This document shows, in pieces, positions 33,487 to 56,364 of a stretch of DNA of 64,000 nt; the first letter of the stretch is position 1, and each line of letters starts with the position of its first letter. Source of the DNA: Pirellula sp. (lineage in GTDB: Bacteria; Planctomycetota; Planctomycetia; Pirellulales; Pirellulaceae); assembly GCA_021299695.1 (NCBI GenBank), contig JAJTEK010000018.1:1-64000 (forward strand), written 5' to 3'. The notes under the pieces are model-generated. The model ran no database searches. It was given only the letters and a program-made list of their open reading frames with translations, and was not told the origin of the DNA. The position numbers and the translations under genes were made by a program.

Positions 33487-33778
33487 CCCTCATCGCTCGC
33501 GGACAGTCCCCGGTTTCTTGCTAGCAACCCGTGAGCCAACCAGCGCAAGCGAGCTGGGCGATTTAACCAATCCCGCCAGGAAGCTGCGTCTGGGCTTTGA
33601 TCAGACCAGCAACGCCTCGTCGGCCCGTAAATGGGGCTCCGACCCGTTTGTGGATAAACGCGATAGAAACGTCACGTACACGCACGGCCTCGGAGGGCCA
33701 TGCTACGGTTGGAAAAAAATACGTGGCCCTAATCGCGCGGGGACTGTTCCCGGTTGCTTGCCAAGCGATTTCCAAAGA

Positions 33779-37101: not shown

Positions 37102-37218
37102 TTGACTGGATTGACCGTGTTGACTGGATTGACGGCGGACGTTGTTGACCTCGTTGACAGTGTCCACTCTGTCCGCTCTCAACACAGTCAATCCAGTCAA
37201 CACCGTCAATCCAGTCAA
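37102..37218. repeat. 32-bp inverted repeat (one mismatch), 53-bp spacer
   Basis: ttgactggattgaccgtgttgactggattgac (37102-37133) versus gtcaatccagtcaacaccgtcaatccagtcaa (37187-37218). Confidence 0.95.
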
Positions 37219-38786
37219 AAAAGCCTCCGCCCTCAGGCGGCGTGGCTGTTTGCCCTGTGGGTTCGAACGTCGCAATAGAGTCCCGCCCTGAAGAGGCGGA
37301 ACTCAACGGCGCGGAAATCCATTCGCGGACGAACCCAGGGCGGCGCTTCGCTTTGCCCTGGGCTATTTCATTTTGCCCCTTTGGGGCGGGGAAATGAAAA
37401 AACCCCGGGGGCGGTCCGTCTCATCATCACGTTATGGAATGTATTTCGGCGATTTCGTTTAACCCGTAGCCAACGGCGTAGGACTTAACCAAGTCCCCCA
37501 GGACGCTGCGTTTGGGCTTTGATCTGACCAGCAACGCCTCATCGGCCCGTAAAATGGGGCTTCGACCCGTTTGTGGATAAGCGCGATCGATTCGTCATCT
37601 ACACGCACGGCCTCGGAGGGCCATGCTACGGTTGGTGCCTCGTCGGCCCGTAAAATGGGGCTCCGACCTGTTTGTGGATGAACGCTACGCTATCGCGCGG
37701 GGACTGTCCCCGGTTGCTTGCCTTTTGCCCCAACGGGGCGCAAGGTGATAGCCCAGGGCAACGCCCTGTGGGTTCGAACGTCGAAATAGAGTCCCGCCCT
37801 GAAGGGGCGGAACTCAACGGCGCGGAAATCCATGCGTCGACTAACCCAGGGGGGCGCTTCGCTTTGCCCTGGGCTATCTCATTTTGCCCCTTTGGGGCGG
37901 GGAAGCAAAAAAAACCCCACCGCGCGGGGACTGTCCCCGGTTGCCCGTCGTCCCGCTCCGGCCGCAACCCGCATCGGGATTCCGGAGGGATCCAATCCAT
38001 TAGCCAGAGGTAGTCGAATCGCCACCCCCGGTGGATGACGTAGAGAGCCGCAAAATGGGCTTTCACGACAGGGCAGAACCGCTCAACACGTTCGATTTCG
38101 CGATCGAATCGGCCGTCAGCGACGGAAACAAAGCAAGCATTCCGCCAGCCTACGGGGGGGGACTGTCCCCGGTTTCTTGTCAAAAACGCGGGGACTGTCC
38201 CCGGGTACTCAGTTAAACCCGTGAGCCAACCAGCGCCAGCGGTTGGGCGATTTAACCAAGCCCGCCAGGAAACTGCGTTTGGGCTTTGATCTGACCAGCA
38301 ACGCCTCGTCGGCCCGTACAATGGGGCTCCGACCCGTTTGTGGGTAAGCGCGATCGATTCGTCACGTACACGCACAGCCTCGGACGGCCATGCTACGGTT
38401 GGAAAAAAGCCGCCGACGTACCTAGGGCGGCGCTTCGCTTTGCCCTGGGCTATCTCATTTTGCCCCTTTGGGGCGGAGAAATGAAAAAAACCTCATCGCG
38501 CGGGGACTTTCCCCGGTTTCTTGTCAACCCACTAAGATTTCCTATTCCCTTGATTGCTAGCTATAGATTCTGCTGCAATCTCTGTAACTTGCCACGATTC
38601 AGGGTATTTCGTTCGGTTCATGGCCCCGCCCCTTGATTTTGCATGGATCGCGACCGATACTCTTTCCAACACACTCGCCGCACCCCTCGCCGAAAGAGCC
38701 CTAAGCTCTTTGGATGACGTGCATCAAGGGCGAGTTATTTTTTTGCACTCTTCCTATTTGCGATTGGTGAATGAGGAGAAACTTCT

Positions 38787-39686
38787 ATGCGCCAGCCATA
38801 CTGTAAAGGTTGGCTGTCCTATTCCGACCAAGTCCAGCTCCTACAGCATCGCGGGCTGGTTGTGTCGGACCTTCGCAAAGCAGAGCAGTTTTTATCTCAC
38901 CTCAACTACTATCGATTTAGCGGGTATTGCTTAGCGTTCGAATCGCAACGTCATACTTTTGTAGCGGGGACGACATTCGAGCAGATCGTCGACGCTTATC
39001 AATTTGATCTTGGATTGCGAGACTTAGTTACCGAAGCTTTGGAAATCATCGAAGTTGATTTGCGAGCTGCGATAGCTTACTTTTTCGGTCAGCGGTATGG
39101 CGCATTCGGTCATACTGTTGCGTCAAATTTCCATATAGGATTTGGGCACACGGACTGGTTGCTTCGACTCCAGGAAGAGGCGCATCGATCGAGCGAACTT
39201 TTCGTTACCCACTTTCAGCGGGCATACATCGAATTCCCGGACCTCCCTGTTTGGATGGTGACGGAGGTGATGTCGTTTGGCGGCTTATCGAAGATGTTTA
39301 TGGGAATGAGTCGCCCCGATCAAAAAGTGATTTCAAATCGCTACAGTTTACAGCCGATCATCCTTCAAAGTTGGATGCACCATTTTGTCTACGTACGAAA
39401 TCTCTGTGCACACCATTCACGGCTTTGGGATCGCGTTTGGGCAATCAAGCCGACACTGCCATACGGCAAAGATTGGGCTGTACCAAACTTGCGCAGCAAC
39501 CGACATCTGCTTGCAACATTGATGCTTCTCAGGTATTGGCTAAAGCGAATTCCGGCTGCCAATCGTTTTGCGTCGAACTGGAAGATTCGGGTGGAGGAAC
39601 ATTTGCAATCGCCACCGGCTGTCGCATCCCCCGACACTCGAATGGGACTAACGCAATCTTGGATGTCGAATCCGATTTGGAAGTAA
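38787..39686 (+). CDS. Abi_2 (AbiD/AbiF-like) abortive-infection family protein
   Basis: LSHLNYYRFSGYCLAF; YQFDLGLRDLVTEALEIIEVDLRAAIAY; HEPN-like VRNLCAHHSRLWDRVW. Confidence 0.85.
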   Translation: MRQPYCKGWLSYSDQVQLLQHRGLVVSDLRKAEQFLSHLNYYRFSGYCLAFESQRHTFVAGTTFEQIVDAYQFDLGLRDLVTEALEIIEVDLRAAIAYFFGQRYGAFGHTVASNFHIGFGHTDWLLRLQEEAHRSSELFVTHFQRAYIEFPDLPVWMVTEVMSFGGLSKMFMGMSRPDQKVISNRYSLQPIILQSWMHHFVYVRNLCAHHSRLWDRVWAIKPTLPYGKDWAVPNLRSNRHLLATLMLLRYWLKRIPAANRFASNWKIRVEEHLQSPPAVASPDTRMGLTQSWMSNPIWK

Positions 39687-40411
39687 AGGACCATTGTGTT
39701 GCCATTTCGAAATGAATTGGCAGACTGGATTAGTCAAACTCCAAGTTTCACCGCGCGAGGTCTGTCCCCGGTTTCGTGCCAGCAACCGGTGAGCCAACCA
39801 GCGCCAGCGGTTGGGCGATTTAACCAAGCCCGCCAGGAAGCTGCGTCTGGGCTTTGATCAGACCAGCAACGCCTCGTCGGCCCGTAAATGGGGCTTCGAC
39901 CTGTTTGTGGATAAACGCGATTGATTCGTCATCTACACGCACGGCCTCGGAGGGCCATGCTACGGTTGGAAAAAACCCCGTGACAGTCCATCGTCGTATT
40001 GATGACCTTATCGCGCGGGGACTGTCCCTGGTTTCTTGCCTTTTGCCCCAACGGGGCGCAAGGTGATAGCCCAGGGCAACGCCCTGTGGGTTCGAACGTC
40101 GAAATAGACTCCCGCCCTGAAGGGGCGGAACTCAACGGCGCGGAAATCCATGCGTCGACTAACCCAGGGGGGCGCTTCGCTTTGCCCTGGGCTATCTCAT
40201 TTTGCCCCTTTGGGGCGGGGAAACAAAAAAACCCCACCGCGCGGGTACTGTCCCCCGTTTCTTGCCAACAGGGGGGAGGTAGTGGATGTGATCGTTACGA
40301 GGGATCATGCCTATCTACCCTGCTTACCTAGGGCAAATCAAGTGACTTTTTGGCTAGACCGGCTTAGAATGTCATCTGGGAAGTTTCTCGATCGAAACCA
40401 GGAGTTCTGGG

Positions 40412-40654
40412 GTGGTTATCAAAGGCACAGTTCACAACGGAATGATTCGCTTTGAAAACTCTGAACTGCCAGAGGGAACTCAAGTCCTAATCACACCCGT
40501 GCAAATTCCGATCGCGAAGGCTGTGAAAGAGGACAGTTTGGAACAGCTCAAGCGGGAGGTTCACCGCATTGCCTCTTTGGCTTCCGAGAGTGACACTGAT
40601 GATAGTTTTTCAGGTGCCGATCACGACAAGCTCCTCTATGGGGGGGGAGTATGA
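40412..40654 (+). CDS. Antitoxin-like protein (AF2212/DUF104-like)
   Basis: MVIKGTVHNGMIRFENSELPEGTQVLITP; overlaps the downstream PIN ORF by 4 bp. Confidence 0.65.
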   Translation: MVIKGTVHNGMIRFENSELPEGTQVLITPVQIPIAKAVKEDSLEQLKREVHRIASLASESDTDDSFSGADHDKLLYGGGV

Positions 40655-40949
40655 TCTTTGTTGACACCGGAGTATGGTACTCGCTTCTTGTACCTAAAGA
40701 TCCGAGCCACCAAAAGACAGCGAAGTGGTTTGACGCGGTCGCGCAACCGATAGTTACAAGCGACTATGTCGTTGACGAGACCTTGACTCTTCTGTTGATG
40801 CGAGGCGAGCGTTCCAAAAACTCTCATCAGCCGGATTGAGTTTTACCGACTGCACTTCGCATGTGGTCGCAGACGACTTAGGGATAAGAACGATTGCGTC
40901 ATTTGATCACCACTTTCAGACCACCGCACGTTTCCAATTGGTTCCCTAG
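40651..40949 (+). pseudogene. PIN-domain toxin, disrupted by an apparent internal deletion/frameshift
   Basis: Frame 1: MIFVDTGVWYSLLVPKDPSHQKTAKWFDAVAQPIVTSDYVVDETLTLLLMRGE; shifted frame from 40809: AFQKLSSAGLSFTDCTSHVVADDLGIRTIASFDHHFQTTARFQLVP*. Confidence 0.75.
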
Positions 40950-41835
40950 GCGCGATAACCCTTCATTTTTGCCTTCCAACGGCAAACACGCGACGCGATT
41001 TACTTTGGGACCGTACCGGGATCGGTGCCGATCTCGGGGCCTCTGGCTTGGCAGCAGGAGCCTTGGGTGGACGCCTTCGGATGTCGGCATCGCTAGCCAA
41101 AAACGCGGGGACTGTCCCCGGGTACTCAGTTTGGATTGTATCCAGGCGACGAAGTTAAACCCGTGAGCCAACCAGCGCTAGCGGTTGGGCGATTTAACCA
41201 AGCCCGCCAGGACGCTGCGTTTGGGCTTTGATCAAACGAGCGACGCCTCGCCCGCCCGTAAAATGGGGCTCCGACCCGTTTGTGGATAAACGTGATCGAT
41301 TCGTCACGTACACGCACGGCCTCGGAAGGCCATGCTACGGTTGGAAAAAAACCCGTGACAGTCCGTCGTATTGATGACCTTATCGCGCGGGGACTGCCCC
41401 TGTTTTCTTGCCTTTTGCCCCAACGGGGCGCAAGGTGAAAGCCCAGGGCAACGCCCTGTGCGTTCGAACGTCGAAATAGAGTCCCGCCCTGAAGGGGCGG
41501 AACTCAACGGCGCGGAAATCCATTCTCCGACGTACCCAGGGCGGCGCTTTGCTTTGCCCTGGGCTATCTCATTATGCCCCTTTGGAGCGGTGAAATGAAT
41601 AAACCCCTATCGCGCGGGGACAGTCCCCGATTTCTTGCCAATGGCGTCCGATGGCACAATGCAGGTGGGGGCTTTGCCATGGGTGGTCCCTTTTGCCCCA
41701 AATTGTTGTATGTCTTCAGCGACGGATCTTCTATCGCTACTCAGCGTTCAGCGGCGTACCTTCAATCATCACGGAGAACGATCTATCGTGGCATGAGAAT
41801 ACAAAAGCAATCGAGCTGATTTTGGATCGACAACT

Positions 41836-42558
41836 CTAGTCTGAATCCTCTCTGTACTCGATCTCGCTCCGAGGAACCGTTTCTCTATCCTTCCAAAAGA
41901 ACTTCATCATTGTGGGGTGCCGTTCAAACGTGCTGTCCTCGAGGATCTGTTCTATGACAGATTTGTCTTTTAGCCCATACTTCTGGTTGCCGTCACCAAG
42001 TTTGCGTTCAAGAATTCCAGCGTTGAACAAAGCGTCCACAACATCGTTGACCTCCCCCTTCGAAACGTGTTTTGGAAAGCCGCCGTTAGGAATATCAGGA
42101 AGCCGCAGAAAGCTCTTGTTCAGAGCAGTCCCCCCCCAAGCTCCACGTCTCTTTAGCTTTTCGATGATTCGAAAAGCGATCATTTCTCGCTTCGAAACCC
42201 GCGGATGGCCACCGTTAAATCGATCGAGTGCTTCGTTTAGCTTTTCGTAAATCTGAATGCTGTCTGTTGGTGTATTCAGAAACAACACATCAATGTCCGA
42301 TAGCTTTGATCGAAGAATTGAGAGTAGTTTAAGTTGAACGCTATGAATGAATACTACTGGTCCAGTTCTCGTCTTAAGTCGGGATATTTCAGCCGCGACA
42401 ATGAAGCCTAGTTGGGCACTCAATGGTATGGGGAAAAATTCACAGCCATTCCATTGGGGCTCTGATTTCGCTAGTTCGAAAACTTCGGTAAGCCAAGCCT
42501 CAAGATGTGGGTATCGCTCGAATGGCGGATGGTAAACATAAAGGTAGCGAGGAGCCAT
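41836..42558 (-). CDS. Hypothetical protein, possible winged-helix C-terminus; second gene of a two-gene operon
   Basis: 240-aa ORF beginning 21 bp after the upstream co-directional ORF stop; no recognised family. Confidence 0.55.
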   Translation of the reverse strand: MAPRYLYVYHPPFERYPHLEAWLTEVFELAKSEPQWNGCEFFPIPLSAQLGFIVAAEISRLKTRTGPVVFIHSVQLKLLSILRSKLSDIDVLFLNTPTDSIQIYEKLNEALDRFNGGHPRVSKREMIAFRIIEKLKRRGAWGGTALNKSFLRLPDIPNGGFPKHVSKGEVNDVVDALFNAGILERKLGDGNQKYGLKDKSVIEQILEDSTFERHPTMMKFFWKDRETVPRSEIEYREDSD

Positions 42559-42579
42559 TTTGCAAAGTCTCCAACGCAG

Positions 42580-43425
42580 TTACTTTAGGAGGTCTGGACG
42601 CAGCTCACCTATCAATATGGAAGCCGGAATTCGTATTTCGAGTAGCTCCGCCGTCGTCAACTTCGAAATCGAACTGAGTAGCACCTGCCGTAATTGATCC
42701 TGACTGCGATTCACTGGTTGGAGTATAACTTGATTATCTATTCGCTTTTGAATTGTTGCTGCATTTTCAAAAACCAACGAAACATCAACACCATTAGATT
42801 CGCACCAATTTTGTACTACTTCGATCACAGCTTTTGATCTTTCACGTTTCCATTCATTCGCTAACTGGGGTGAAATCTCACAAAGTGATTCGGCGAATGC
42901 AAGGTACCACTTAGATGCTTGAATAGAATTTCTAGCGGACTCTGATGTTATGTTTTTTTTATCAAGAAATGAAATTGCATTCTGTTTTTCCCACTCGGAT
43001 GAAACTGGTGTTAACTCGATCCACCCAATTCCTGGTGACGCGTCGTTCTCATTTAGAATCTCGCCAGAGGAAGAGTTAAAATAACGTTTCCCTGGAGGAT
43101 CTGCTTTGACAAAAGCATACCAGACATCGGTCTTCAGCCGTTTGTGGTGCATCGAAGGTTGAGGAAGACTCGCTTTGCCTTCGCTTCGCAGCAATCTGAA
43201 AGAAAAGGCATTCTTGGAGTTTGGACCAGTAACCAAGAAATTCTCATTTTCCAATTCGAAAAGTAGATCCTTGAATTTTAGAAATCCGAAGTCTTCAAAA
43301 TTCCCGAGGAGCCTTTTAAGTAGATAGGCAGCAGAGGCCGCCGTCATGCTTCCATCCGGGTCATTGGAGCGGAAATTGTCGACGAGCAGTGCTTTGGCCG
43401 ACTTTAGATACTCACCACGATTCAT
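42580..43425 (-). CDS. Hypothetical protein with OST-HTH/LOTUS-like N-terminal region
   Basis: SMTAASAAYLLKRLLGNFEDFGFLKFKDLLFELENENFLVTG...LKTDVWYAFVKADPPGKRYFNSSSGEIL resembles LOTUS-type proteins. Confidence 0.5.
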   Translation of the reverse strand: MNRGEYLKSAKALLVDNFRSNDPDGSMTAASAAYLLKRLLGNFEDFGFLKFKDLLFELENENFLVTGPNSKNAFSFRLLRSEGKASLPQPSMHHKRLKTDVWYAFVKADPPGKRYFNSSSGEILNENDASPGIGWIELTPVSSEWEKQNAISFLDKKNITSESARNSIQASKWYLAFAESLCEISPQLANEWKRERSKAVIEVVQNWCESNGVDVSLVFENAATIQKRIDNQVILQPVNRSQDQLRQVLLSSISKLTTAELLEIRIPASILIGELRPDLLK

Positions 43426-44124
43426 TCAAATGTCCTCCACACGAGTGAAAAACAAAACTCTCGATCTTTGTCCAGACCGAGAGTTCTTTCTGTTTTGTTG
43501 TGCGCAAGAACCAGAATGCAAATCGTTATTGGTCGTTCTTTTGGAATGCTTGCTGTCAAACCAAATCCAGACCATTTGCTCATCTAGGCTTTGCCCCGAG
43601 AGCAAATGCCCCCTGAACGCCGCTGAGAGGAGTATCGACCAAACACAACACAGAGTCAAGCCGAATTTCTGCTTTAGCCCATGTTTTCAAGCGTTTGAGT
43701 CCCAAAAGGACGGCTGGGATCGTTAGACACTGAACCTCGTAAAGACGTTTTCTCCAATAAAATACCGGTGATTTTTTGGAACATCGGTGCTTTGTGTGGG
43801 TAGCCAAAGGCAGAGAAAGCACCCAAGAGGATTCGCGCGAGGGTTGGTAGAGACATCGCACAGTGGAGAGTTTGAGACTGGGCTAACGCGTGCATACCCC
43901 TGAAAATGCTGCGTAAAAGCGTCAACAGGCCTTCGTTTTGAAACGCCGGGCTGCCACTAATGCGGAGGGTCAGAAGGGTTTCTTCCCCCGCCTAGGGGGA
44001 CGAACGCACATCAACCCTATCTATCCTTGCCCAACCGGCTGTGAACGAGAGGGCTCGAACCGCCCACACCCGTAATCTCTGAATACCACCGGAGGCGCTC
44101 CAATGGGCTTAAACTCGCCCAAGA

Positions 44125-44508
44125 TCAACGTTGAGTTGCTTCGTCACTCACCGAGACGAAAGAAACACCGTATTCATCGAACGCTTCCATGATCCTGGAT
44201 AAATCCCTTGGCGAGCGACTCAGTCGATCAACGTTGTAGACCACCACGCAATCGATCTTTCCGCTTTTGATGTCATCTAGGAGTCGATTAAGAGCAGGTC
44301 GATCTAGGCTACTGCCCGAGAAACCGCTATCGTCGTAATGATCCGGCAAGCATTCCCAGCCTTCGTGTTGCTGGCCAGCGATGAATGACTTAGCTGATTC
44401 GCGCTGGGTGTGGAGCGAGTTGAAATCGAGCTCGAGTCCCTCTTCAACCGACTTTCGTGTGTAGATCGCGGAGCGGTTTTTGGCGTTTGCTTTCCGTGTT
44501 GGTTTCAT
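44125..44508 (-). pseudogene. Serine recombinase (resolvase) N-terminal remnant
   Basis: SAIYTRKSVEEGLELDFNSLHTQRESAKSFIAGQQHEGWECLPDHYDDSGFSGSSLDRPALNRLLDDIKSGKIDCVVVYNVDRLSRSPRDLSRIM, then stop shortly afterwards. Confidence 0.8.
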
Positions 44509-44672
44509 GAATTGTTTCCTAGGAGAAAGAATTGGAGTCCGTGGAGGTGGGAGCCGGTGATCGTGTTCGCGAGCGCCGAGAGGGACTTGAATAACTGGCC
44601 GTCGTATTCGAAGCCGTTGTAGACCAACCGTCGTCGGCGTCGTATGGCTCGCCGAAGTGTAAGAGAATCCAT
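44505..44672 (-). pseudogene. DUF2924-like C-terminal remnant
   Basis: Read manually, below the ORF-track cutoff: MDSLTLRRAIRRRRRLVYNGFEYDGQLFKSLSALANTITGSHLHGLQFFLLGNNS*; ATGA overlap with the recombinase start. Confidence 0.6.
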
Positions 44673-44763
44673 GTAAGTCGTGAGTCGGGCAGCCGAACGC
44701 CGAGTTCGGCAGGATATTGAGATAAACCCGTTTCAATTCCTTACTGCCTGGAGACTCACGACC

Positions 44764-45165
44764 ATGAAAACAATTCTCGCTCTGGATCTTGGAAAATTCA
44801 AGACCGTGTCCTGTCTGCTGACCGAGAATCACGCGTCGATTCCGGTATTCAAAACCATCATGACCAATCCTAAAACGTTCGAACAGTTCTTGCTTGACGT
44901 CAAACCGTCGTTGCTGGTTCTCGAAGCCTGTGGGCTCTCCGGTTGGGTCGTGGATCTGGCTCGTAAACTTGGCGTTGAGGTGCTGGTCGCTCATCCGGGC
45001 GGCGAAGCATGGCAATCGGGAAAGGTTAAACGCAAGACCGACAAAGACGACGCGCTCAAGCTCGCGCAAATGGCCAGGAACAACGAAAGCGACTCTGTGC
45101 ATGTACCTTCACCTGAGCATCGACAATTCCAGCAACTGGTCCGTTATCGTAAAAAGCTTTGCTGT
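44764..45165 (+). mobile_element. IS110-family transposase remnant (N-terminal DEDD region only)
   Basis: MKTILALDLGKFKTVSCLL...LEACGLSGWVVDLARKLGVEVLVAHPGGEAWQSGKVKRKTDKDDALKLAQMA; homology stops at a ggactgtcccc motif near 45168-45182. Confidence 0.75.
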
Positions 45166-45331
45166 GCTGGGACTGTCCCCGACTCCGTGTCCATTCGATT
45201 ACTAAAGACCCAATCTGCGCGGCACCCCTTCCAAACAAAAAGGGACAAAAAACGTATTTTTAGGAAGATTCGGTATTGTCGGCGTATTGACAACCCAAAC
45301 CCATGCCTTAAGCTTGACGCATGGACACGGA

Positions 45332-45554
45332 CAACCTCCAGCACCGTCGCAGAGCTTGCTTTTCGACGGTCAACCCAGCGGCGCGAAAGCGACGCTGTAA
45401 ATTGGGCCGTCGTGTGTTGGCGCGTCTAACACAACGATCGTTCCTCCTAGTACCTCGCCACGTCACGTGTCGGGTCGCGGGTGATTTAAGGGGCAAGTTG
45501 ACGCCGGCACGTGCCGGCGATAACGAGCTCCGTCATTTCCGTTTATGGAGGTTG
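45332..45554 (+). ncRNA. Candidate retron msr-msd ncRNA
   Basis: CAACCTCCA (45332-45340) is complementary to TGGAGGTTG (45546-45554), with AG immediately at the a1 3' edge; internal hairpins at 45343-45370 (ACCGTCG/CGACGGT), 45376-45397 (GAAA loop), 45413-45433 (TGTGTT/AACACA), 45502-45519 (CGCCGGCACGTGCCGGCG). Confidence 0.5.
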
Positions 45555-45557
45555 ATT

Positions 45558-45794
45558 ATGTCACGAAACAATCGTGATGATGTGTCCTTTAGGGATCAGG
45601 AGTTGGAATTGCTTGCTAATTTTTGGCGAGTCTTCTCCGACGATGGTGACCTAAAGGAAATGATGGGGGGGTCGCTAGTCGATCTTCGACGCGAGGCTTT
45701 AAGATGCTTGGGGCAAAAACCGCCAGACCTTAAGGGTGCACGAGCGGCGACGGCTCAAGCGATATTTGAAATGCAACGTGGAAGAGAAAATTAG
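45558..45794 (+). CDS. Small protein (78 aa) between the candidate ncRNA and the XRE/RT genes
   Basis: GGAGG Shine-Dalgarno at 45547-45551; MSRNNRDDVSFRDQELELLANFWRVFSDDGDLKEMMGGSLVDLRREALRCLGQ... Confidence 0.55.
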   Translation: MSRNNRDDVSFRDQELELLANFWRVFSDDGDLKEMMGGSLVDLRREALRCLGQKPPDLKGARAATAQAIFEMQRGREN

Positions 45795-45823
45795 CGACCT
45801 CCCAAAAATCATTTATTTGAAAA

Positions 45824-46141
45824 ATGCGATACCTAGGAAAAGCAGCAAAAAAAGTCCGAATCCAATCCGGCATGACGCAGGTCACGCTTGCTCAAGAGTT
45901 GGGTATTTCCGTGGTGCACTTGAGCAATATCGAGAATGACCACTCAATGCCTTCTCCAGAATTAGTCAATAAATACAGGTCGATTACTGGTATTGATTTG
46001 TATGTCCTGGATTGGTGTGATAATGGCGATTTAGAGTCGTTACCAAAAAACGTCCGTGAGGCCGCTGCACGGTTGAGAGAGGCATGGTCTTTTGGAAAAA
46101 AAAGCAATGTTAAAGACGAGGGTTGCATTGACAAAGAGTAG
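45824..46141 (+). CDS. XRE-family HTH protein (retron-associated)
   Basis: KVRIQSGMTQVTLAQELGISVVHLSNIENDHSMPSPELVNKYRSITGI. Confidence 0.8.
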   Translation: MRYLGKAAKKVRIQSGMTQVTLAQELGISVVHLSNIENDHSMPSPELVNKYRSITGIDLYVLDWCDNGDLESLPKNVREAAARLREAWSFGKKSNVKDEGCIDKE

Positions 46142-47219
46142 GCTTGAAATCTTTCGTCCAAAACAGCTTGCAAACTTGCTTGGTTTCGAGGAATCATTCC
46201 TTCGATGTCTAGCATCCACGGTGCAAAACCCTGCAACGAGATCAAAATATATCAATGAATTTACAATCGTCGATCCAAGGGAGGACCGTAAGCCACGGGA
46301 TGTTATTTCAATTCGGGGTGATTTTAGAACCGTTCAGCGAAGGATCTATCAACGAATTCTATCCCAAGTGATCAAGCCAGGGCCTTCCAGTCATGGAGGG
46401 ATACGGGGCAAAAGTATCAAATCCAACGCGGAAGCTCACTTAGGTAATGTGTATGCTTACCAGACGGACATTGCGAATTTTTTTCCATCTATCCACCGTG
46501 ATCGAGTCCGCTCTGTTCTCCAAAACTACGTGGGTTCCAGGGATGTAGCGGAATTGTTAGCACAACTGGTCACTCTGGATGATCACCTTGCTCTTGGGTT
46601 AGTTACGAGTCCGATACTCGCTGAAGCAGTCATCCAACCTGTTGATACTCGTATATCCGGAGCCTGTCGGAAAATGGGGCTTACGTATAGCCGGTTTGTT
46701 GATGACATCTGTATTTCGGGCAGTTTCCCAATCGATAAATCATGTATTCCACGCATGGTTCGTGGCATCCTTCAAAACAACGGTTTTAAGATTCGGCCGG
46801 AAAAAGACCGTTTCGTATCGTTATCAACTGATTTGTTCTCATTGACCGGTATCGAGATTCGCAAGAACCGATTACGAGTACCTCAGCGTTACATCAACGA
46901 TTTAGTCCATGATCTTGAATCAGCGAATGCGATTGCAATGGGTTGTGAGCATCCGGTAACCCTGTATTATACGAGGGAACAAATTGTTGGGCGAATTCAG
47001 TTCGTTCGATGGGTTAATAAAGGACAATCTAGTATTCTAGTGAAAAAATTCAAAAAAATAAATTGGAGGTTGCATTCAAAGCAGGCCCTTTTGCGTGGTT
47101 TGATTGTTTTGAAACCCCGATCAGTTGATCGCTCCAGCGGTGCAGTTTCCGATGGTACAGTTGTTGGGGAAAGTACGCCTTTGCAATCCAAGAAGCGCTC
47201 GATCAAAAGCGTCGACTGA
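46092..47219 (+). CDS. Retron-type reverse transcriptase
   Basis: SNAEAHLGNVYAYQTDIANFFPSIH (NAXXH-like + RT motif A), LVTSPILAEAVIQPVD, YSRFVDDICISG (xxDD), LTGIEIRKNRLRVPQR (VTG-like). Confidence 0.85.
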   Translation: MEKKAMLKTRVALTKSRLEIFRPKQLANLLGFEESFLRCLASTVQNPATRSKYINEFTIVDPREDRKPRDVISIRGDFRTVQRRIYQRILSQVIKPGPSSHGGIRGKSIKSNAEAHLGNVYAYQTDIANFFPSIHRDRVRSVLQNYVGSRDVAELLAQLVTLDDHLALGLVTSPILAEAVIQPVDTRISGACRKMGLTYSRFVDDICISGSFPIDKSCIPRMVRGILQNNGFKIRPEKDRFVSLSTDLFSLTGIEIRKNRLRVPQRYINDLVHDLESANAIAMGCEHPVTLYYTREQIVGRIQFVRWVNKGQSSILVKKFKKINWRLHSKQALLRGLIVLKPRSVDRSSGAVSDGTVVGESTPLQSKKRSIKSVD

Positions 47220-47640
47220 GGGTGAGCGCACACCAGCCGGACCGCCTTTTTCGCAGCGCAGGGCGCGCGCGGGCAGACCCAAGGTGCGCCCTTGTTTCTA
47301 TCCCAGTTGTTAAGGAGATCCTGCTTAAGTCTCGCTTAGCATCCACGAAAGCCGACCAGACTTGGGCCGAACGAATCGCCTTGTGCGAACGATCCACTGC
47401 TCCCGTTGCGCAGTTCTGCCAGTCGATCGGCTGCTCGCCGACGTTCTTCTTCCAGTGGAAACGTAAAACCGGTGCTAACCCCCAAACAAGCGCAATCCTG
47501 TGTGTCCAAACGTTCGAGTCCACCAAAGGACACCATCGAGATCAAACTCCCCTCTGGAATCCCCATCTTCGTTCCAGTCTCGGCCGTGAAATCCATTGCT
47601 GCGATCCTCGAACAGGTAGAAAAACTCGGGGACTGCCCCC
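47217..47640 (+). mobile_element. IS66-family remnant: left-end sequence plus degraded accessory ORFs
   Basis: ggtgagcgcacaccagccgg end; WAERIALCERSTAPVAQFCQSIGCSPTFFFQWKRK, then in another frame IEIKLPSGIPIFVPVSAVKSIAAILEQVEKLG. Confidence 0.65.
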
Positions 47641-47683
47641 GAGTTTTTTCGATCACCCCCCGCCTACCCAATCCATCATGGTA

Positions 47684-47705
47684 GATCGATTGTCCACAAT
47701 CGATC
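47684..47705. promoter_or_regulatory. Perfect 10-bp inverted repeat, 2-nt spacer, upstream of the SNF2 operon
   Basis: GATCGATTGT-cc-ACAATCGATC. Confidence 0.5.
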
Positions 47706-47998
47706 GGAACCTGAAACCTCCGCAGCCAGTGCGATTAAACAGCGGAACATCGCACGCAGTCCGGTGAGTCTAAAAATTAGTTCTCCAGGAATTTCTGTAT
47801 CGGCGAACTTTTCGGAAACCCTCTCTCCTCGAACGACGATGAATGCACAGAGTCCAGAAAACCCGTGGATCTGAGTGGCATGTGGCTGGCGTCTCGCCAA
47901 CGAAGGACTTCGGAAAACACCGTGGGATGGTTGTCTGACATCAAACGCTGGGTTACCATACCGTGTTCAATGTTCCGTAATCATGTACATGGCGAACG

Positions 47999-50863
47999 AT
48001 GACGGTTACCCCTTATCATGCAAAGATTTTTGCGCACGAGCTTACCAAGAGATGCTCAGCTGACAGCATCGAAAAGCTCGCCGGGGCGCTCGTAGATGCA
48101 CAGGTCGACCTCAATCCGCACCAAGTCGAAGCGGCACTCTTCGCCTTTCATTCGCCGCTGTCAAAAGGTGCGCTGTTGGCCGATGAGGTGGGTCTGGGCA
48201 AAACCATCGAGGCGGGCCTCGTACTCTCGCAGAAATGGGCAGAACGCAAACGTCGTGTCCTGGTGATCACACCAGCCAACTTGCGTAAGCAGTGGCACCA
48301 GGAGATTCAAGAGAAGTTCTTTCTCCCCTGCAAAATACTAGAAGCGAAATCGTACAACGACTCGATCAAACGAGGGCATTTCCGCCCCTTGGAAATCGAC
48401 GACACCATTGTCATCTGCTCCTACCAATTCGCTCGCTCAAAAGCTGCTGATGTCAATGCAACGCGATGGGACATGGTGGTCATCGACGAAGCCCACCGAC
48501 TGCGTAATGTGTACAAACCCAGCAATGTTATCGCTAACACATTGAAAATGGCACTAAAGGACGTTCCAAAGCTGTTGCTCACCGCCACACCGCTTCAAAA
48601 CTCATTGCTCGAACTGTTCGGGTTGGTTAGCTTCATCGACGAACACGCTTTTGGCGATCTCAAGAGCTTTCGCGAGCAGTTCTCGCACCTCAAAGATCAG
48701 GCCGTTTTTGACACGCTCAAGGCCCGACTCAAGCCCATCTGCCATCGCACGCTGCGTCGACAGGTCACGGCCTACGTGCCTTACACCCTGCGTCATCCGA
48801 TGATTCAGGAATTCACGCCAGCCGAGGCAGAAGACCGCCTATACACACTCGTGTCCGACTATCTCCGTCGCGACAACCTCCAAGCCTTACCTGCCAGCCA
48901 ACGGTCACTGATGACCTTGGTGTTGCGTAAACTGCTGGCGTCGTCAACCTTTGCAATTGCCGGTGCGCTCGACACGCTCACCAATCGGCTCAAAGCAAAG
49001 GTCGCTAAGCAGACACCACCGCAATCGCTAGAAGATGAACTGGACCAAGACTACGAAGCGCTTGATGAGACGGCGGAGGAATGGGAAAAAGATTCCTCAG
49101 ACGACAAACCGCTCTCGGCCGCAGACCTCGCCGCAATTCAGGGCGAGATTTCCGATTTGGTAGAGTTTCGTGATCTTGCGGTGTCGATCACCCGCAATGC
49201 CAAGGGAGATGCTCTGTTGGCGGCGCTCGATCGAGCGTTTGCCGAGGCTGGACGCTTGGGCGCTGCGCGCAAGGCCATCATCTTCACGGAATCTCGCAAG
49301 ACACAGGAATATCTTCAGCGCGTGTTGGCCGACAGTTCTCACAGCGAGGGTATCGTCTTATTCAATGGATCGAATACCGATCCGTTGTCCCGATCCATTT
49401 ATGCCCGCTGGCTAGAACAACATGTCGGTACCGACCGCGTGACCGGCTCCAAGACATCCGACATGCGTTCGGCGCTCGTCGATTATTTCCGAGATGAAGG
49501 TCGCATTATGATCGCCACCGAAGCGGGCGCGGAAGGGATCAACCTGCAATTCTGCTCGCTGGTTGTGAACTACGATCTTCCGTGGAACCCCCAGCGCATC
49601 GAACAACGGATCGGTCGCTGCCACCGTTACGGACAAAAGCACGACGTGGTCGTGGTCAACTTCTTGAATCGCAACAACGAAGCCGACCAGCGAGTCTTCG
49701 AATTGCTGGCCGAAAAGTTCTCACTCTTCGAGGGAGTGTTTGGGGCCAGCGACGAGGTGCTTGGTGCCATTGAGTCTGGCGTCGATTTTGAGAAGCGTAT
49801 TGCTGCTATCTATCAGCGCTGTCGCACTCTAGAGGAAATCAAGGCGTCGTTCGATCAACTGCAGCTTGAACTGGGTGCCCAGATCAACGACGCCATGACG
49901 CACACTCGCCGGCAATTGCTTGAAAACTTCGACGCCGAAGTTCACGATATGCTTCGCGTAAGACTCGACCAAACCCAAGACTACCTCAATCGCTACGAGC
50001 GGCTGCTCATGCAGTTGACTCAGTTTGAGCTTGGGGATGATGCCGAGTTCCTCAATGGTCAAAGCGGATTTCGGCTGAAGTCCAATCCGTTTCCGACTGT
50101 TAAAGAAATCCCGCTGGGACTTTACGAATTGCCCCGTCGCTCGGGTGAGTCGCATCTTTACCGACTAGGGCATCCACTAGCTCTGCAGATTCTACAGCGC
50201 GCCAAGCAGCGCAATCTTCCAGCAGCGGAAATCACGTTCGATTGCAGTGGTACGTACCCCCGGGTGGCCGCGTTGCAACCGTACGTCGGCCAATCGGGCG
50301 ACTTGCTGGCGGCACTTTTTACCGTGGAATCGCTTGACCAGGTCGAGGACTATCTTATCGTGGCAGCGATTTCCGATGGCGGTGAGATGCTCGCAGAAGA
50401 GACGGCCAGACGTATGTTTTCTCTTCCGTCGGTTAGCGTAATCGAGCTGCCGTCGTATCCAGCGAACGTCCGTCTAGAGGAAGAGATCAAGTGCTGCACA
50501 ATAGTCATTCAGCAAACGATCTCGAATCGTAACGCTGATCTTTTTGAGGCCGAGGCCGACAAGCTCGACTATTGGGCAGATGATCTGAAGGTCGCCCTGG
50601 AGCGCGAGATCAAAGACTTTGACCGCCAAATCAAGGAGGTTAAGCGTTCGGCAACGCTATCGCTCACGCTCGAAGAAAAACTGGCTGGGCAGAAGCAAAT
50701 CAAGGCACTCGAAAGTCAGCGAAATAACAAACGAAAGTCGCTCTTTGAGGCCCAAGATGAAGTAGACCAGCAGCGCGAGCGATTGATCGCCGAGATCGAG
50801 GGCATACTGGCGCAAAAGTTGCAATCTCAAACCTTATTGAATATCCGTTGGTTACTTACTTGA
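47999..50863 (+). CDS. SNF2/DEAD-type helicase, defence-associated
   Basis: LADEVGLGKTIEAGLVLSQKW; VVIDEAHRLRN; LLLTATPLQNSLLELFGLVSFID; MIATEAGAEGINLQFCSLVVNYDLPWNPQRIEQRIGRCHRYGQ. Confidence 0.92.
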   Translation: MTVTPYHAKIFAHELTKRCSADSIEKLAGALVDAQVDLNPHQVEAALFAFHSPLSKGALLADEVGLGKTIEAGLVLSQKWAERKRRVLVITPANLRKQWHQEIQEKFFLPCKILEAKSYNDSIKRGHFRPLEIDDTIVICSYQFARSKAADVNATRWDMVVIDEAHRLRNVYKPSNVIANTLKMALKDVPKLLLTATPLQNSLLELFGLVSFIDEHAFGDLKSFREQFSHLKDQAVFDTLKARLKPICHRTLRRQVTAYVPYTLRHPMIQEFTPAEAEDRLYTLVSDYLRRDNLQALPASQRSLMTLVLRKLLASSTFAIAGALDTLTNRLKAKVAKQTPPQSLEDELDQDYEALDETAEEWEKDSSDDKPLSAADLAAIQGEISDLVEFRDLAVSITRNAKGDALLAALDRAFAEAGRLGAARKAIIFTESRKTQEYLQRVLADSSHSEGIVLFNGSNTDPLSRSIYARWLEQHVGTDRVTGSKTSDMRSALVDYFRDEGRIMIATEAGAEGINLQFCSLVVNYDLPWNPQRIEQRIGRCHRYGQKHDVVVVNFLNRNNEADQRVFELLAEKFSLFEGVFGASDEVLGAIESGVDFEKRIAAIYQRCRTLEEIKASFDQLQLELGAQINDAMTHTRRQLLENFDAEVHDMLRVRLDQTQDYLNRYERLLMQLTQFELGDDAEFLNGQSGFRLKSNPFPTVKEIPLGLYELPRRSGESHLYRLGHPLALQILQRAKQRNLPAAEITFDCSGTYPRVAALQPYVGQSGDLLAALFTVESLDQVEDYLIVAAISDGGEMLAEETARRMFSLPSVSVIELPSYPANVRLEEEIKCCTIVIQQTISNRNADLFEAEADKLDYWADDLKVALEREIKDFDRQIKEVKRSATLSLTLEEKLAGQKQIKALESQRNNKRKSLFEAQDEVDQQRERLIAEIEGILAQKLQSQTLLNIRWLLT

Positions 50864-50881
50864 TACGGAGAGAATAACACT

Positions 50882-51937
50882 GTGAATCACCAGTTACCTA
50901 CGTTTACCAGCGCTTCGTGGACAGTCACCGGGTTGCTTGACTCGCTAAAGTCAGAACTCACTGCTGACGCCGCGTGTAACCAAATGCGATTTTTCGCATA
51001 TGCAGTTACTCTATCGGGATGGCAGGAGATTCGAGATGTTTTCAATGAGTGGAAAGGTCGAGTGAACGACCGCAGTACCATCGGTTACATAGGTACGGAC
51101 CATGCATTAACTGATCCCGAAGCAATTCGGAAAATGCAGAGAGACGGCATAGAGATTCGAGTGATGACTGCTTACAACGGTGTTTTCCATCCAAAAGTGT
51201 TCTGGCTTTCAGGACCGCGCAGCAATCTTGTCTGGGTGGGCAGCAATAACCTCACACGCGATGGACTAATACAGAACATCGAATTCTCAACGCTAATAAA
51301 GTCTCAGCACGATAACCCGGACCTTCGACGCTGGTTCGACAACGTACACTCAGCAAGTGAGCCTATTTCGGATACACTCCTCAAAAACTACGAAGACGAG
51401 CGTCGCGTGTTCGCATTAAGTCGATCGGCAACAGGTACGTTTACGTGGAGCATGCGACGCGAAGCACCACAGCCCACAACGGCACCTGCACGTAATCCCG
51501 CGACAACTCCTGCGACGGTGCCCGTGACCGCGTTGAATTTGCTGCCTGGCATACGGGGCGATTTGGTGGTAGAGGTAATGCCACTTGAAACAGGCCTCGA
51601 TGGTAAGCAAATGCAGCTTCCCAAGTCAGCTGTAGTTCAATTCTTCGGCTTAGACGATCATGTTGGAGCAACTCGTCAAGTTACGCTAACTCCGATTGGA
51701 ACAGCAGCGAGACGGGACTTAACAATAACGATTTTCGGCAACAATACTGCACGGCTATCCATCAATGAACTTGATTACCGCGATCGTCCGTGCGTCATAG
51801 TCTTTCACAAGACTGGAAACGCGGCATTTCAGTTCGAGATAGTACGGCAGAGCATTTATCCTGTCCGATTCCGCACCCTACTTGCGCGATGTGCTAATCA
51901 GACACGCCAAGGGAGCCGACGTTGGATAATCCTATAA
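50882..51937 (+). CDS. Phospholipase D-like (PLD) domain protein
   Basis: HPKVFWLSGPRSNLVWVGSNNLTRDGLIQNIEF (HxK plus GSxNLT). Confidence 0.75.
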   Translation: MNHQLPTFTSASWTVTGLLDSLKSELTADAACNQMRFFAYAVTLSGWQEIRDVFNEWKGRVNDRSTIGYIGTDHALTDPEAIRKMQRDGIEIRVMTAYNGVFHPKVFWLSGPRSNLVWVGSNNLTRDGLIQNIEFSTLIKSQHDNPDLRRWFDNVHSASEPISDTLLKNYEDERRVFALSRSATGTFTWSMRREAPQPTTAPARNPATTPATVPVTALNLLPGIRGDLVVEVMPLETGLDGKQMQLPKSAVVQFFGLDDHVGATRQVTLTPIGTAARRDLTITIFGNNTARLSINELDYRDRPCVIVFHKTGNAAFQFEIVRQSIYPVRFRTLLARCANQTRQGSRRWIIL

Positions 51938-51973
51938 ATTTGGAAAGGAACGTGAATTGAGGTGCGAAAGAAC

Positions 51974-53644
51974 ATGACAAAAGCCAGACTAGAACTTACT
52001 TGGATCGGCAAGGAAGTACGGCCCAGGCTTGAGCCTCGCGTGTTGCTCGAAGATGCGTCACGCTCACACCATGCACATTACAAAGTGACGCACGAAGACC
52101 AATTCGACAATCGTGTGATCTTTGGCGACAATCTTCTCGCTTTAAAGGCACTTGAGCAAGACTTCTGCGGTAGTGTTAAGTGTATTTATATTGACCCGCC
52201 CTACAACACTGGTTCTGCTTTCAGTCATTACGACGATGGTTTGGAGCACTCTATCTGGCTAAGTTTAATGCGTGATCGCCTGGAAATACTACGTACGTTG
52301 CTTCGTCCAGACGGAATAATATTTGTACATATTGATGACAACGAGCATGCCTATCTTAAAGTGTTGATGGATGAAATTTTCGGACGTCGAAATTTTTGTG
52401 GTCAATTCATTTGGGAGAAGAAGAAAAAGCCATCTTTCTTAAACGCAAACATGGGGATCGTTACCGAATATATCCTAGCCTACTCCCCTGATCGCTCTAA
52501 GTCTCCTGCTTTCGTTGGCGGTCTCACCACCGAAGGTAAGAAATACCCGCTTAACAATGCGGGTAATGGTTTGCAGACATTAACGTTCCCAGCTAAGTCA
52601 GTGGAGTTTCGTTGTGGCGATCAGCGATTTGAACCGCAAGACATGTCCGAGGGTAATATTGTTACGCGATTGTTAGATCAAGTGATTGTCGAGCGCGGTC
52701 GGAACAAGGATTCGTTTCGTCTTGAAGGAGAGTGGCGGTACTCGCAGCGCAAGTTAGACGAGATCATCGTGGCCGGAGAGCCGCTTGTGATCAGCAAAGC
52801 TCCTTTTCGGCCAAACCATATCAAAGCGGGAGGCGAGGAAAAGAAGATTAAAAATTTGCTCTCGATTGCCCATTTCCAAATCGCCACCTATGAAGACTCG
52901 AATGCAGAGAGCGCATTGCTTTTTGGCGAAAATGCGTTTGACTACCCGAAGCCGGAACAGCTCTTATTTACACTCATCAACGCTGTTACGAATCCCGGCG
53001 ATCTTGTCCTCGACTCATTCGCTGGGTCGGGAACCACTGGTGCGGTCGCCCACAAGATGGGCCGACGCTGGATCATGGTGGAACTCGGCGAGCACTGTCA
53101 CACGCACATCATCCCCCGCATGAAAAAGGTCATCGATGGCGAGGATCAGGGCGGAATCAGCAAGGCGGTCGATTGGAAAGGTGGCGGCGGGTTTCGCTAT
53201 TATCACCTTGCACCGTCGCTGCTGGAACAAGACAAATGGGGACGCTGGGTCATCAGCAAAGAGTTCAACGCTGCCATGATGGCCGAGGCGATCTGCAAGC
53301 TGGAAGGTTTTCAATACGCACCCAGCGATACGATCTACTGGCAACAAGGCCACTCGACGGAACGCGACTTCCTGTACGTTACCACCCAACACCTGACCGC
53401 CGATCAATTGCATCAGCTCTCCGACGACGTAGGAGCCGACCGAACGCTCTTGGTCCTCTGCACCTCGTTTCGCGGTAAGGCTGAACGCTGGCCGAACCTT
53501 ACGGTAAAGAAAATTCCGAAACAAGTCCTCTCTCGCTGCGAATGGGGGCACGACGATTACAGTCTGAAAATTGAGAACTTGCCTAAGGCACCAAAAAAAC
53601 TGAGGCAACAATCGCTCTTTGATCTAGCAGGGGGTGCCCAATGA
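51974..53644 (+). CDS. Beta-class DNA methyltransferase, type III Mod-like
   Basis: Motif IV DPPYNTG precedes motif I FAGSGTTGAVAHKMGRRWIMVELGEH; FGDNLLALKALE. Confidence 0.92.
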   Translation: MTKARLELTWIGKEVRPRLEPRVLLEDASRSHHAHYKVTHEDQFDNRVIFGDNLLALKALEQDFCGSVKCIYIDPPYNTGSAFSHYDDGLEHSIWLSLMRDRLEILRTLLRPDGIIFVHIDDNEHAYLKVLMDEIFGRRNFCGQFIWEKKKKPSFLNANMGIVTEYILAYSPDRSKSPAFVGGLTTEGKKYPLNNAGNGLQTLTFPAKSVEFRCGDQRFEPQDMSEGNIVTRLLDQVIVERGRNKDSFRLEGEWRYSQRKLDEIIVAGEPLVISKAPFRPNHIKAGGEEKKIKNLLSIAHFQIATYEDSNAESALLFGENAFDYPKPEQLLFTLINAVTNPGDLVLDSFAGSGTTGAVAHKMGRRWIMVELGEHCHTHIIPRMKKVIDGEDQGGISKAVDWKGGGGFRYYHLAPSLLEQDKWGRWVISKEFNAAMMAEAICKLEGFQYAPSDTIYWQQGHSTERDFLYVTTQHLTADQLHQLSDDVGADRTLLVLCTSFRGKAERWPNLTVKKIPKQVLSRCEWGHDDYSLKIENLPKAPKKLRQQSLFDLAGGAQ

Positions 53645-56364
53645 ACCGTCATGTAAATGCTATTACTGGTCGATTGAGCTTGCGTGCCCCTCAGCGACAA
53701 TCGCTAGAAATCCTGGACCGCATCACCGAAATTTCGCCCCCCAAGAAGGACGCCAATCACGATACTGCCTTGGCCGCGATTCAAAGGGAGTTCCCATCGG
53801 TAACCGATTTTGAGCGCGAGTTTCCATCGGTCTGTTTCGCGCTAGCGACGGGTGTCGGCAAGACGCGGCTGATGGGCGCCTTTGTCAGCTATCTCTATCT
53901 GGCGCATGGATTCAGGAACTTCTTCGTGCTCGCGCCGAACCTAACGATCTATAACAAGCTGATCGCCGACTTTACACCGAACACACCGAAGTATGTATTC
54001 AAAGGGATCGCCGAGTTTGCCATCGATTCGCCTGCTATCATTACGGGTGACAATTACGAGTCGCAGGCCGGCAACTTGTTCGATCAATTCGTTCGCTGCA
54101 AGGTGAACATCTTCAATATCTCGAAGATCACGAGCGAGGTGCGCGGCGGCAAGGCACCTCGCATCAAGCGGCTCTCCGAATACATCGGCCAAAGCTATTT
54201 CGATTACTTGGCTGAGTTGGATGACCTGGTGCTGATCATGGACGAGTCGCATCGCTACCGTGCTTCGGCTGGTATTCGAGCAATCAATGACTTGAAACCA
54301 ATTCTAGGCTTGGAATTGACAGCCACTCCTTTTGTGGAAACCACTAAAGGAGCGATTCCATTCAACAATGTGATCCTCGACTATCCTCTTGGCCGAGCAA
54401 TGGCGGATGGTTTTGTAAAGGAACCGGCCGTTGTCACACGAATGAACTTCAATCCCGCCGGCATGTCGGCGGACGAAATCGAGCGACTGAAGCTGGAAGA
54501 CGGTGTGCGGCTTCACGAAACGGTCAAGGTCGAGTTAGAAACCTATGCTCGCGAAACGGCGAATCGGATTGTTAAACCTTTCGTTCTGGTTATCGCTCGT
54601 GACATCACGCACGCGGGGCAGTTGCTGGAGTTGATTCAGTCGGATAGCTTTTTCGAGGGGCGCTACCGGGAAAAAGTTATCCAGGTTGATTCGAGCAAGA
54701 CCGGCGCGGAAGAGGACGCGATGATCCAACGTTTGCTGGCCGTCGAAAGCACCGAGGAACCAACGGAGATCGTGATTCACGTTAACATGCTCAAGGAAGG
54801 CTGGGACGTGACGAACTTGTACACAATCGTCCCATTGCGCGCGGCAAACGCCCGAATTCTGATCGAGCAATCGATCGGTCGTGGCCTGCGGTTGCCTTAT
54901 GGTAAGCGGACGGGCGTTATGGCCGTGGACCGCCTCAATATTGTGGCCCACGACAAGTTTCAGGAGATCATCGACGAGGCCAACAAGCCGGGATCAATGA
55001 TCCAATTGCAGCAGGTCGTGCTGAGCGGAGAGCAGCTTGGGGAGAAGACGGTTACGGTCGTTTCGCAGCCGCAATTGGCAAGTCAGTTGGGCATTCAGCC
55101 TACCCAGACCACGACCAGCACCCTGGTGGCACCAAGTAGCGCGGTTCCAGCGTTTACGTCACCAGCGGAGCAACAAGTCGCGCAAGTTGCCTATGAAGTG
55201 ATTCGACGGCTCGAAAGCCAACCTCAGACGGTGCCGAGCGTAAACTGCCTTCAAAATGCGGATGTCCACGCTCAGATGGTCAAAGAAGTGACCAGCCAGG
55301 TGCGACCGGCTCAATTGCAGTTACCCGGCATCGAGGCCGAAGTTGATATTTCGGCCGTCGTGGCAAAAACCGCGCAGTTGGTGATGCAGCAGACGATTGA
55401 TATTCCACGCATTCTCGTCGTGCCGACAGGGAAGGTGCTCTCGGGATTTCGGGAGTTCACGCTGGAGCTTGGTTCTATGAGCTATCAGCCGCCATCTGAC
55501 GAACTTTGGGCGCAGCACCTACGAACCGGCCAAGTCGAAGTGCTGGCGATGGGGCGAGGTGGAATCGATGAACTTCGCCTTGAAGACTATGTGGTAAGTG
55601 GCTTGGTGGACTACGACGACGTTTCCTACGACGACCACGCCGACCTGCTTTACGATCTTGCGAGCCAAGTAGTGAGCCATTTGCGGGGCTATCTCTCGGA
55701 AGACGATACTCGCAAAGTGCTGCGTTGTTTCCAGACGCCGATTGCGCAGTTCATCCATGCCCAGATGCAGGAACATTATTGGGAGGAAGCGGGCGGCTAC
55801 GAGATAAAGGTGAGCAAGGGATTCACCGAACTCAAGCCGTGCGCCTTCACGGCGTCAGCGACGGAAGCGGTGCGAGATTTCCGCCAAGCGCCCAACGACA
55901 AGAGCAACATGGCAAAATATGTCTTTGGCGGCTTCCAACGCTGCTTGTATCCAGCGTTAAAGTTTCAAAGCGACTCGGAACGCAAGTTGTCAGTCATCTG
56001 TGACCGCGAATCGCTGAAGTGGTTCAAGCCTGCTAAGGGACAGTTCCAGATCTTCTATTTGTGGGGCGGAGAGCATTTGGAATACCAACCCGACTTCGTC
56101 GCGGAACTCGACGAGATCATCCTCATGCTAGAACCAAAAGCGTCGAGCGCCATGGTCGATACAGAGGTTCTGGCTAAACGCGATGCCGCCGTGAAATGGT
56201 GTAAGCAGGCGAGTAATCATTCCCAGACGTGCGGTGGAAAACGGTGGCAATACGTGCTCATTCCGCACGATGTAATCGCCGACAACATGACGTTGCTTGG
56301 TTTGGCGAAACAGTACGGAGAATGGACAGACGGGCAAGACAACCAAGGAACGGCAGGCGACTAA
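53641..56364 (+). CDS. Type III restriction Res-like helicase-nuclease
   Basis: ALATGVGKTRLMGAFVSYLYL; LIMDESHRYRA; LELTATPF; IGRGLRLPYGKRTG; C-terminal YQPDFVAELDEIILMLEPK (PD-(D/E)xK-like); 4-bp overlap with the methyltransferase gene. Confidence 0.9.
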   Translation: MNRHVNAITGRLSLRAPQRQSLEILDRITEISPPKKDANHDTALAAIQREFPSVTDFEREFPSVCFALATGVGKTRLMGAFVSYLYLAHGFRNFFVLAPNLTIYNKLIADFTPNTPKYVFKGIAEFAIDSPAIITGDNYESQAGNLFDQFVRCKVNIFNISKITSEVRGGKAPRIKRLSEYIGQSYFDYLAELDDLVLIMDESHRYRASAGIRAINDLKPILGLELTATPFVETTKGAIPFNNVILDYPLGRAMADGFVKEPAVVTRMNFNPAGMSADEIERLKLEDGVRLHETVKVELETYARETANRIVKPFVLVIARDITHAGQLLELIQSDSFFEGRYREKVIQVDSSKTGAEEDAMIQRLLAVESTEEPTEIVIHVNMLKEGWDVTNLYTIVPLRAANARILIEQSIGRGLRLPYGKRTGVMAVDRLNIVAHDKFQEIIDEANKPGSMIQLQQVVLSGEQLGEKTVTVVSQPQLASQLGIQPTQTTTSTLVAPSSAVPAFTSPAEQQVAQVAYEVIRRLESQPQTVPSVNCLQNADVHAQMVKEVTSQVRPAQLQLPGIEAEVDISAVVAKTAQLVMQQTIDIPRILVVPTGKVLSGFREFTLELGSMSYQPPSDELWAQHLRTGQVEVLAMGRGGIDELRLEDYVVSGLVDYDDVSYDDHADLLYDLASQVVSHLRGYLSEDDTRKVLRCFQTPIAQFIHAQMQEHYWEEAGGYEIKVSKGFTELKPCAFTASATEAVRDFRQAPNDKSNMAKYVFGGFQRCLYPALKFQSDSERKLSVICDRESLKWFKPAKGQFQIFYLWGGEHLEYQPDFVAELDEIILMLEPKASSAMVDTEVLAKRDAAVKWCKQASNHSQTCGGKRWQYVLIPHDVIADNMTLLGLAKQYGEWTDGQDNQGTAGD

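Follow-up and report, generated by a model that had tools for sequence, protein, structure and literature searches.

A probable type VI retron in Pirellula sp. and complementarity of its non-coding RNA family to sequences at the starts of both partner genes

A retron uses an enzyme to convert a part of its RNA into DNA, probably in defence against phages. In a window of 64,000 nt of Pirellula sp. contig JAJTEK010000018.1, on which all coordinates are given, we identified an operon in which a structured non-coding RNA (ncRNA; 45332-45554) is followed by a 78-aa ORF (45558-45794), a gene encoding an XRE-type HTH protein (45824-46141) and a reverse transcriptase (RT) gene (46107-47219), the start of which overlaps the 3' end of the HTH gene. 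Both accessory ORFs had been called in the initial annotation and are intact at these coordinates. The locus contains the following features:

45287-45292, + strand: candidate -35 box TTGACA of an operon promoter, weak and without a good -10 box, as read from the sequence
45332-45340, + strand: a1 arm of the ncRNA, CAACCTCCA, paired with a2 in the MFE and centroid structures, complementarity kept in relatives
45341, + strand: putative branching guanosine, in AGC after a1, by analogy with known retron ncRNAs
45343-45370, + strand: msr hairpin 1, from the MFE structure
45376-45397, + strand: msr hairpin 2, CAGCGGCGCGAAAGCGACGCTG, from the MFE structure, with equivalent hairpins in relatives
45480-45493, + strand: msd element, GGTGATTTAAGGGG, for which duplex prediction gives complementarity to the HTH leader, with a family-wide signal at this position
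45546-45554, + strand: a2 arm of the ncRNA, TGGAGGTTG, within which GGAGG (45547-45551) is the small-ORF ribosome-binding site
45558-45794, + strand: small auxiliary protein, 78 aa, predicted four-helix, without a database family
45800-45813, + strand: leader element, TCCCAAAAATCATT, in the gap between small ORF and HTH gene, complementary to the msd element by duplex prediction
45824-46141, + strand: XRE-family HTH protein (HTH_VI), 105 aa (PADLOC HTH_VI, 1.3e-16; Pfam HTH_3, 4.6e-12)
46107-47219, + strand: retron RT, assigned to type VI, from ATG at 46107 (or TTG at 46092) (PADLOC RT_VI, 3.7e-50; RVT_1, 5.1e-15; tree)

The RT carries the motifs that the initial annotation had pointed out, namely SNAEAH (NAXXH), a VTG-like segment reading SLTG and an xxDD catalytic box that reads FVDD and is intact. 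The closest solved structures are the retron RTs Ec67, Ec86 and Ec78, and the NCBIfam retron models match the RT below cutoff. A group II intron RT was rejected, as retron RT models fitted best and the group II model matched weakly (4e-07, 29 bits with a cutoff of 300). A DGR RT was also rejected. Type IX was rejected as well, since RT_IX (4e-32) scored far worse than RT_VI and no HEPN gene is present among the genes of the retron. Among PADLOC models, the RT is matched best by RT_VI and the HTH protein by HTH_VI. With the RT alone, RT_III-A (1.2e-48) is narrowly behind RT_VI, and the type VI call therefore also leans on the tree and on the presence of the HTH gene and the small ORF.

In scans of genome contigs, the single RT sequence gave no match and a three-sequence profile did. 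The comparison set consists of 44 type VI loci, that of the window and 43 relatives. A tandem of RT and HTH genes is present in 38 distinct loci of planctomycetes and many other phyla, and 35 of these have a small ORF before the HTH gene; where the genes overlap or are separated by short gaps, the spacing is conserved. HTH_VI matches the HTH protein in 38/38 loci, partly by selection because the loci were picked with an HTH profile. A tree of 141 RTs pairs the RT of the window with that of locus L103 (SH-aLRT 97) in a planctomycete clade (SH-aLRT 97) placed within the HTH-linked retron RTs, and these neighbour the RTs of cold-shock (Se72-type) retrons. An HTH gene accompanies 12 of the 13 RTs in the planctomycete clade, and the thirteenth (L026) has an HTH match outside the distance filter. 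If the locus belonged to type III-A or to another retron type that merely adjoins an HTH gene, the nearness of the RT_III-A score would be accounted for. The deoxyribosyltransferase-like effector and the winged-helix gene of type III-A are both absent from the locus, however, and together with the HTH_VI match and the HTH genes of the planctomycete clade this makes such an assignment very unlikely.

In a passage of PMC8541194 citing the classification of Mestre et al. (2020), a type VI retron is described as an RT with a DNA-binding protein and a small auxiliary protein. Here RT_VI is the best model, the HTH gene lies directly upstream of the RT gene and overlaps it, and a small ORF precedes the HTH gene. 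The initial annotation had proposed an HTH-associated retron and left its type undecided; HTH_VI, RT_VI, the gene order and the tree now place it in type VI. We conclude that the locus is probably a complete type VI retron with the anatomy described above, and we expect that it makes msDNA and that it may act in phage defence.

Several retrons resemble the locus in part. Type VI retrons in phages P2_2H1, ST147-VIM1phi7.1, KS5 and MuM16-1 likewise have an HTH gene overlapping the RT gene, a short ORF before the HTH gene and an upstream region of ncRNA size, whereas the window retron belongs to the planctomycete sub-clade and its small protein is longer, soluble and predicted to be four-helix instead of short, basic and hydrophobic. 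The type V / Se72-type cold-shock retrons have a nearby RT clade in the tree and a small partner gene, but their order is ncRNA, RT, cold-shock gene, without an HTH gene. Loci L156-L158 carry an RT of Se72-type retrons on 4-kb plasmids of E. coli and Serratia, and the Se72 effector gene is annotated in L156. In a Neomarinimicrobiota MAG (L059, 2451-3855), HTH and RT matches share one open frame, a possible HTH-RT fusion. In three candidate-phylum type VI loci (L048, L071 and L079) the small ORF overlaps the HTH gene without an untranslated leader, and any msd match in these loci would sit within coding sequence.

The retron is flanked on one side by a resolvase fragment and the remnant of an IS110 element and on the other by a transposase-like remnant, near AbiD and a cluster of a DrmD-like helicase, a PLD protein and type III restriction-modification genes, a setting that is a defence island. 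Such flanks, and the presence of one RT of this kind in the host genome and none in the sampled genomes of the same genus, would suit an inactive retron decaying in a transposon-rich region. Against decay, none of the three ORFs is disrupted, both the catalytic box and the a1/a2 stem are preserved and the codon-position bias is normal, and we regard decay as improbable and an intact retron as the better description. The resolvase fragment and the truncated IS110 transposase lie at 44125-45150 and the transposase-like remnant (IS66-type, by eye) at 47222-47767. The AbiD-type abortive infection gene is found at 38787-39686 (Abi_2, 5e-53; PADLOC AbiD, 6e-67), and directly downstream of the retron (47999-56364) a DrmD-like helicase, a PLD-domain protein, a type III methyltransferase and a type III restriction enzyme are encoded in a row. 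Two adjacent genes of 240 and 281 aa without Pfam or PADLOC match are present inside the island on the minus strand (41836-43425). At 37180-41650, long direct repeats of 49-252 nt form four families with 4-5 copies, at 63-92% identity to the reference copy. The REP-like palindrome GGGGACWGTCCC has 38 matches from 32566 to 47640 (both strands, at most one mismatch) compared to 0.45 expected, clustered at 32-48 kb, and two of these sites bracket the retron.

The small protein could be assigned to no Pfam, NCBIfam or PADLOC family, and Pfam and PDB searches gave only marginal matches to coiled coils or designed bundles. AlphaFold2 predicted four helices (mean pLDDT 77), and a fold search with this model returned nothing significant (best E 5.8). 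Position and sequence of the small ORF are conserved among planctomycete relatives, the proteins of which have in common FW...L, a W-E-V-L helix, DPPD and a T-A-x-A helix. Compared to the closest relative the reading frame is kept, with 0.28, 0.35 and 0.59 changes at codon positions 1, 2 and 3, respectively, and this concentration at the third position supports translation of the small ORF. The proteobacterial small proteins have a hydrophobic C-terminal helix, those borne by phages are short, basic and hydrophobic, and homology between the planctomycete and proteobacterial proteins was unsupported (HHalign probability 1.3%). That the small protein is the effector of the retron is a guess. Alternatively, the HTH protein could be the toxic effector and the small protein its antitoxin or adaptor, which the lack of a recognisable domain and the strong sequence divergence of the small protein would allow. 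XRE-type HTH proteins usually act as regulators or as antitoxins, however, and in several phage-borne relatives the short, basic and hydrophobic small protein resembles small membrane toxins, so that we consider this exchange of roles unlikely and keep the small protein as the candidate effector.

Upstream of the small ORF, the initial annotation had described a hairpin-rich stretch of about 223 nt with 9-nt complementary ends and a G directly after the first of them, and these are found at 45332-45340 and 45546-45554, with G45341. The predicted fold energy of 45332-45554 is -101.2 kcal/mol compared to -82.5 ± 5.1 kcal/mol for dinucleotide shuffles (z -3.7), with 0/200 shuffles folding as well, and the MFE and centroid structures both contain the 9-bp end stem. 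A 157-aa ORF (45321-45794) was rejected as a single protein, its first half being the structured ncRNA. The ncRNA has no match in Rfam. A consensus scan found no sigma-70 promoter upstream of it, and TTGAC is seen by eye upstream of a1 in several relatives as well. Directly after a1, several relatives have AGC or GCAC.

The a1/a2 arms were scored as ungapped stems with cross-locus controls, because RNAduplex on long windows was too permissive. The 9-bp match of the window exceeds chance, as its shuffle p is 0.01 and its score is unreached by any cross-locus pairing among the planctomycete relatives. The arms differ in sequence between relatives and are still complementary, as in L103 (AATTCTCC/GGAGAATT), L104 (CCCCTTACG/CGTAGGGGG), L024 (CTCCCACG/CGTGGGAG), L106 (GCTCTCCTA/TAGGAGAGC) and L003 (CTTCTTTCTGGG/CCCAGAAAGGAG). 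RNAalifold on seven aligned relatives, with an alignment anchored at a1 and a weak total energy, recovered the stem with 5/7 pairs changed on both sides. The comparison with relatives supports the ncRNA and the branching G proposed in the initial annotation. The a2 arm overlaps the ribosome-binding site or the start of the small ORF in relatives, and in the window and these five loci it holds that site; part of a1 is thus an anti-Shine-Dalgarno sequence, and the flanking pairs still vary together. Across the 44 loci, upstream windows (-310 to -200) are complementary to the start region of the small ORF, where the signal peaks (z 5-7).

A second complementarity connects the msd with the leader of the HTH gene. 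The untranslated gap past the stop codon of the small ORF carries clade-specific motifs, of which the cores CCTCCCAAA, CAAGCCCA and ACTCCTTAATTT are kept within clades. When the msd of each of 35 loci was scored against its own leader, the score was 20.9 compared to 16.7 after permutation (z 8.6, 0/50000 permutations), and the same-sense control gave z 1.9. A gapped alignment of msd and leader was discarded as too permissive. Nine additional loci from plasmids, phages and genomes, fetched once the idea had formed, gave p 0.017, and the matches of L152, L153 and L155 were strong. A position scan over the 44 loci showed a peak of z 11.1 in one cell (msd -105 to -65, counted from the small ORF, and leader 0 to +40), selected after scanning 56 cells; overlapping neighbour cells reached z 5.7 and 3.7, the remaining cells at most 4.2, and the same-sense control at the peak cell z -0.3. 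With 34 non-redundant loci the z score was 10.3. Positions were anchored on small-ORF starts that were chosen by hand in relatives, and since the permutations share these anchors the signal does not arise from their choice. In 10/44 loci, compared to 0.21 expected, there is a perfect run of 10 nt or longer, and 17/44 loci lack perfect runs of at least 7 nt. A Shine-Dalgarno-like sequence precedes 22/35 small ORFs compared to 7/35 HTH genes, in agreement with regulation at the leader. At the sequence level, the comparison supports complementarity, across the family, between the ncRNA and the regions controlling its partner genes. It ties the type VI ncRNA to the start regions of both partner genes, and the open papers searched contained no earlier account of msd-leader complementarity.

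In the window itself, GGUGAUUUAAGGGG (45480-45493) can pair with UCCCAAAAAUCAUU (45800-45813) through 12 pairs, three of them G.U, with an AA/AA (2x2) internal loop. The longest perfect run is 6 nt and the match is not significant alone, and the window msd is the best partner of the window leader among the 35 loci. The planctomycete-only test (nine core loci) gave p of about 0.04, a weak result because the relatives share a CCCAA core. The variable half co-varies by eye (UGAUUU/AAAUCA, GGAAU/AUUCC, UGGUU/AACCA, CGGUU/AACCG).

The msd-leader match could act as RNA pairing or as DNA. The a1/a2 pairing would mask the small-ORF ribosome-binding site. The HTH leader, in which a Shine-Dalgarno sequence is usually missing, can form pairs with the msd element. 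Turning the msd into DNA would remove the leader pairing, so that HTH-RT output would track the extent of ncRNA reverse transcription. That the ncRNA tunes operon expression in this way is a serious possibility that we place somewhat short of probable. In MS2 phage, a distant RNA segment pairs with the leader of a downstream gene, and the state of the first gene sets replicase translation. The likeness to this unrelated system is functional only, and here the distant segment is also the template for reverse transcription.

Alternatively, the match may be a DNA site, with the HTH protein binding one sequence both in its operator and in the hairpin of the msDNA, and msDNA serving as a decoy of the operator and so reporting how much of it is present. 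In agreement with this, msDNA copied from the msd element would have the sense sequence of the HTH leader, and within clades the leader cores show the conservation expected of a site bound by a protein. In addition, G.U pairs are not clearly enriched over A.C mismatches: a first count of 33 against 19 was suggestive, and the count corrected for composition gave 30 flanking G.U compared to 24 expected (p 0.07) and 17 A.C compared to 14. The winged-helix partner of type IX retron-Kva2 binds msDNA, and release frees a toxin (PMC13405049). On the other hand, the msd and leader elements are not palindromic and the match occurs in inverted orientation only, while a DNA site could lie either way. Most XRE operators are palindromic. 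The flanks co-vary between relatives (GGAAT/ATTCC, TGGTT/AACCA, CGGTT/AACCG), as two copies of one protein site would too. A shared DNA site is therefore a tenable reading, toward which we remain rather sceptical.

No published mechanism for type VI retrons was found in the open papers searched, which mention these retrons solely by their composition of RT, DNA-binding protein and small protein. We tentatively propose that the RT would prime from the 2'-OH of G45341 within the a1/a2-closed ncRNA and copy the msd, upstream of a2, into msDNA, and that the RT-msDNA complex, probably with the HTH protein on the msDNA, would hold the small protein in an inactive state. A phage that interferes with this complex would then release the small protein and growth would stop. 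By analogy with the winged-helix protein of Kva2, an HTH protein bound to msDNA is plausible here. Both systems combine a DNA-binding partner with a separate effector, but the Kva2 effector is a HEPN RNase and its winged helix is not of the XRE type (PMC13405049). Holding and release of the small protein is a mechanism that we consider possible and would not yet favour.

For the family as a whole, type VI retrons might regulate themselves via their own template, a proposal that we put forward with some reserve. The msd would pair with the Shine-Dalgarno-poor HTH-RT leader, reverse transcription would swap this RNA regulator for DNA of the leader's sequence and thereby set HTH and RT expression, and a1/a2 would gate translation of the small effector. 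The msd-leader match provides a concrete reason for the msDNA sequence in type VI retrons and could explain the balance of RT, HTH and effector levels. It also marks the bases to keep or change if type VI retrons are used for making DNA in cells.
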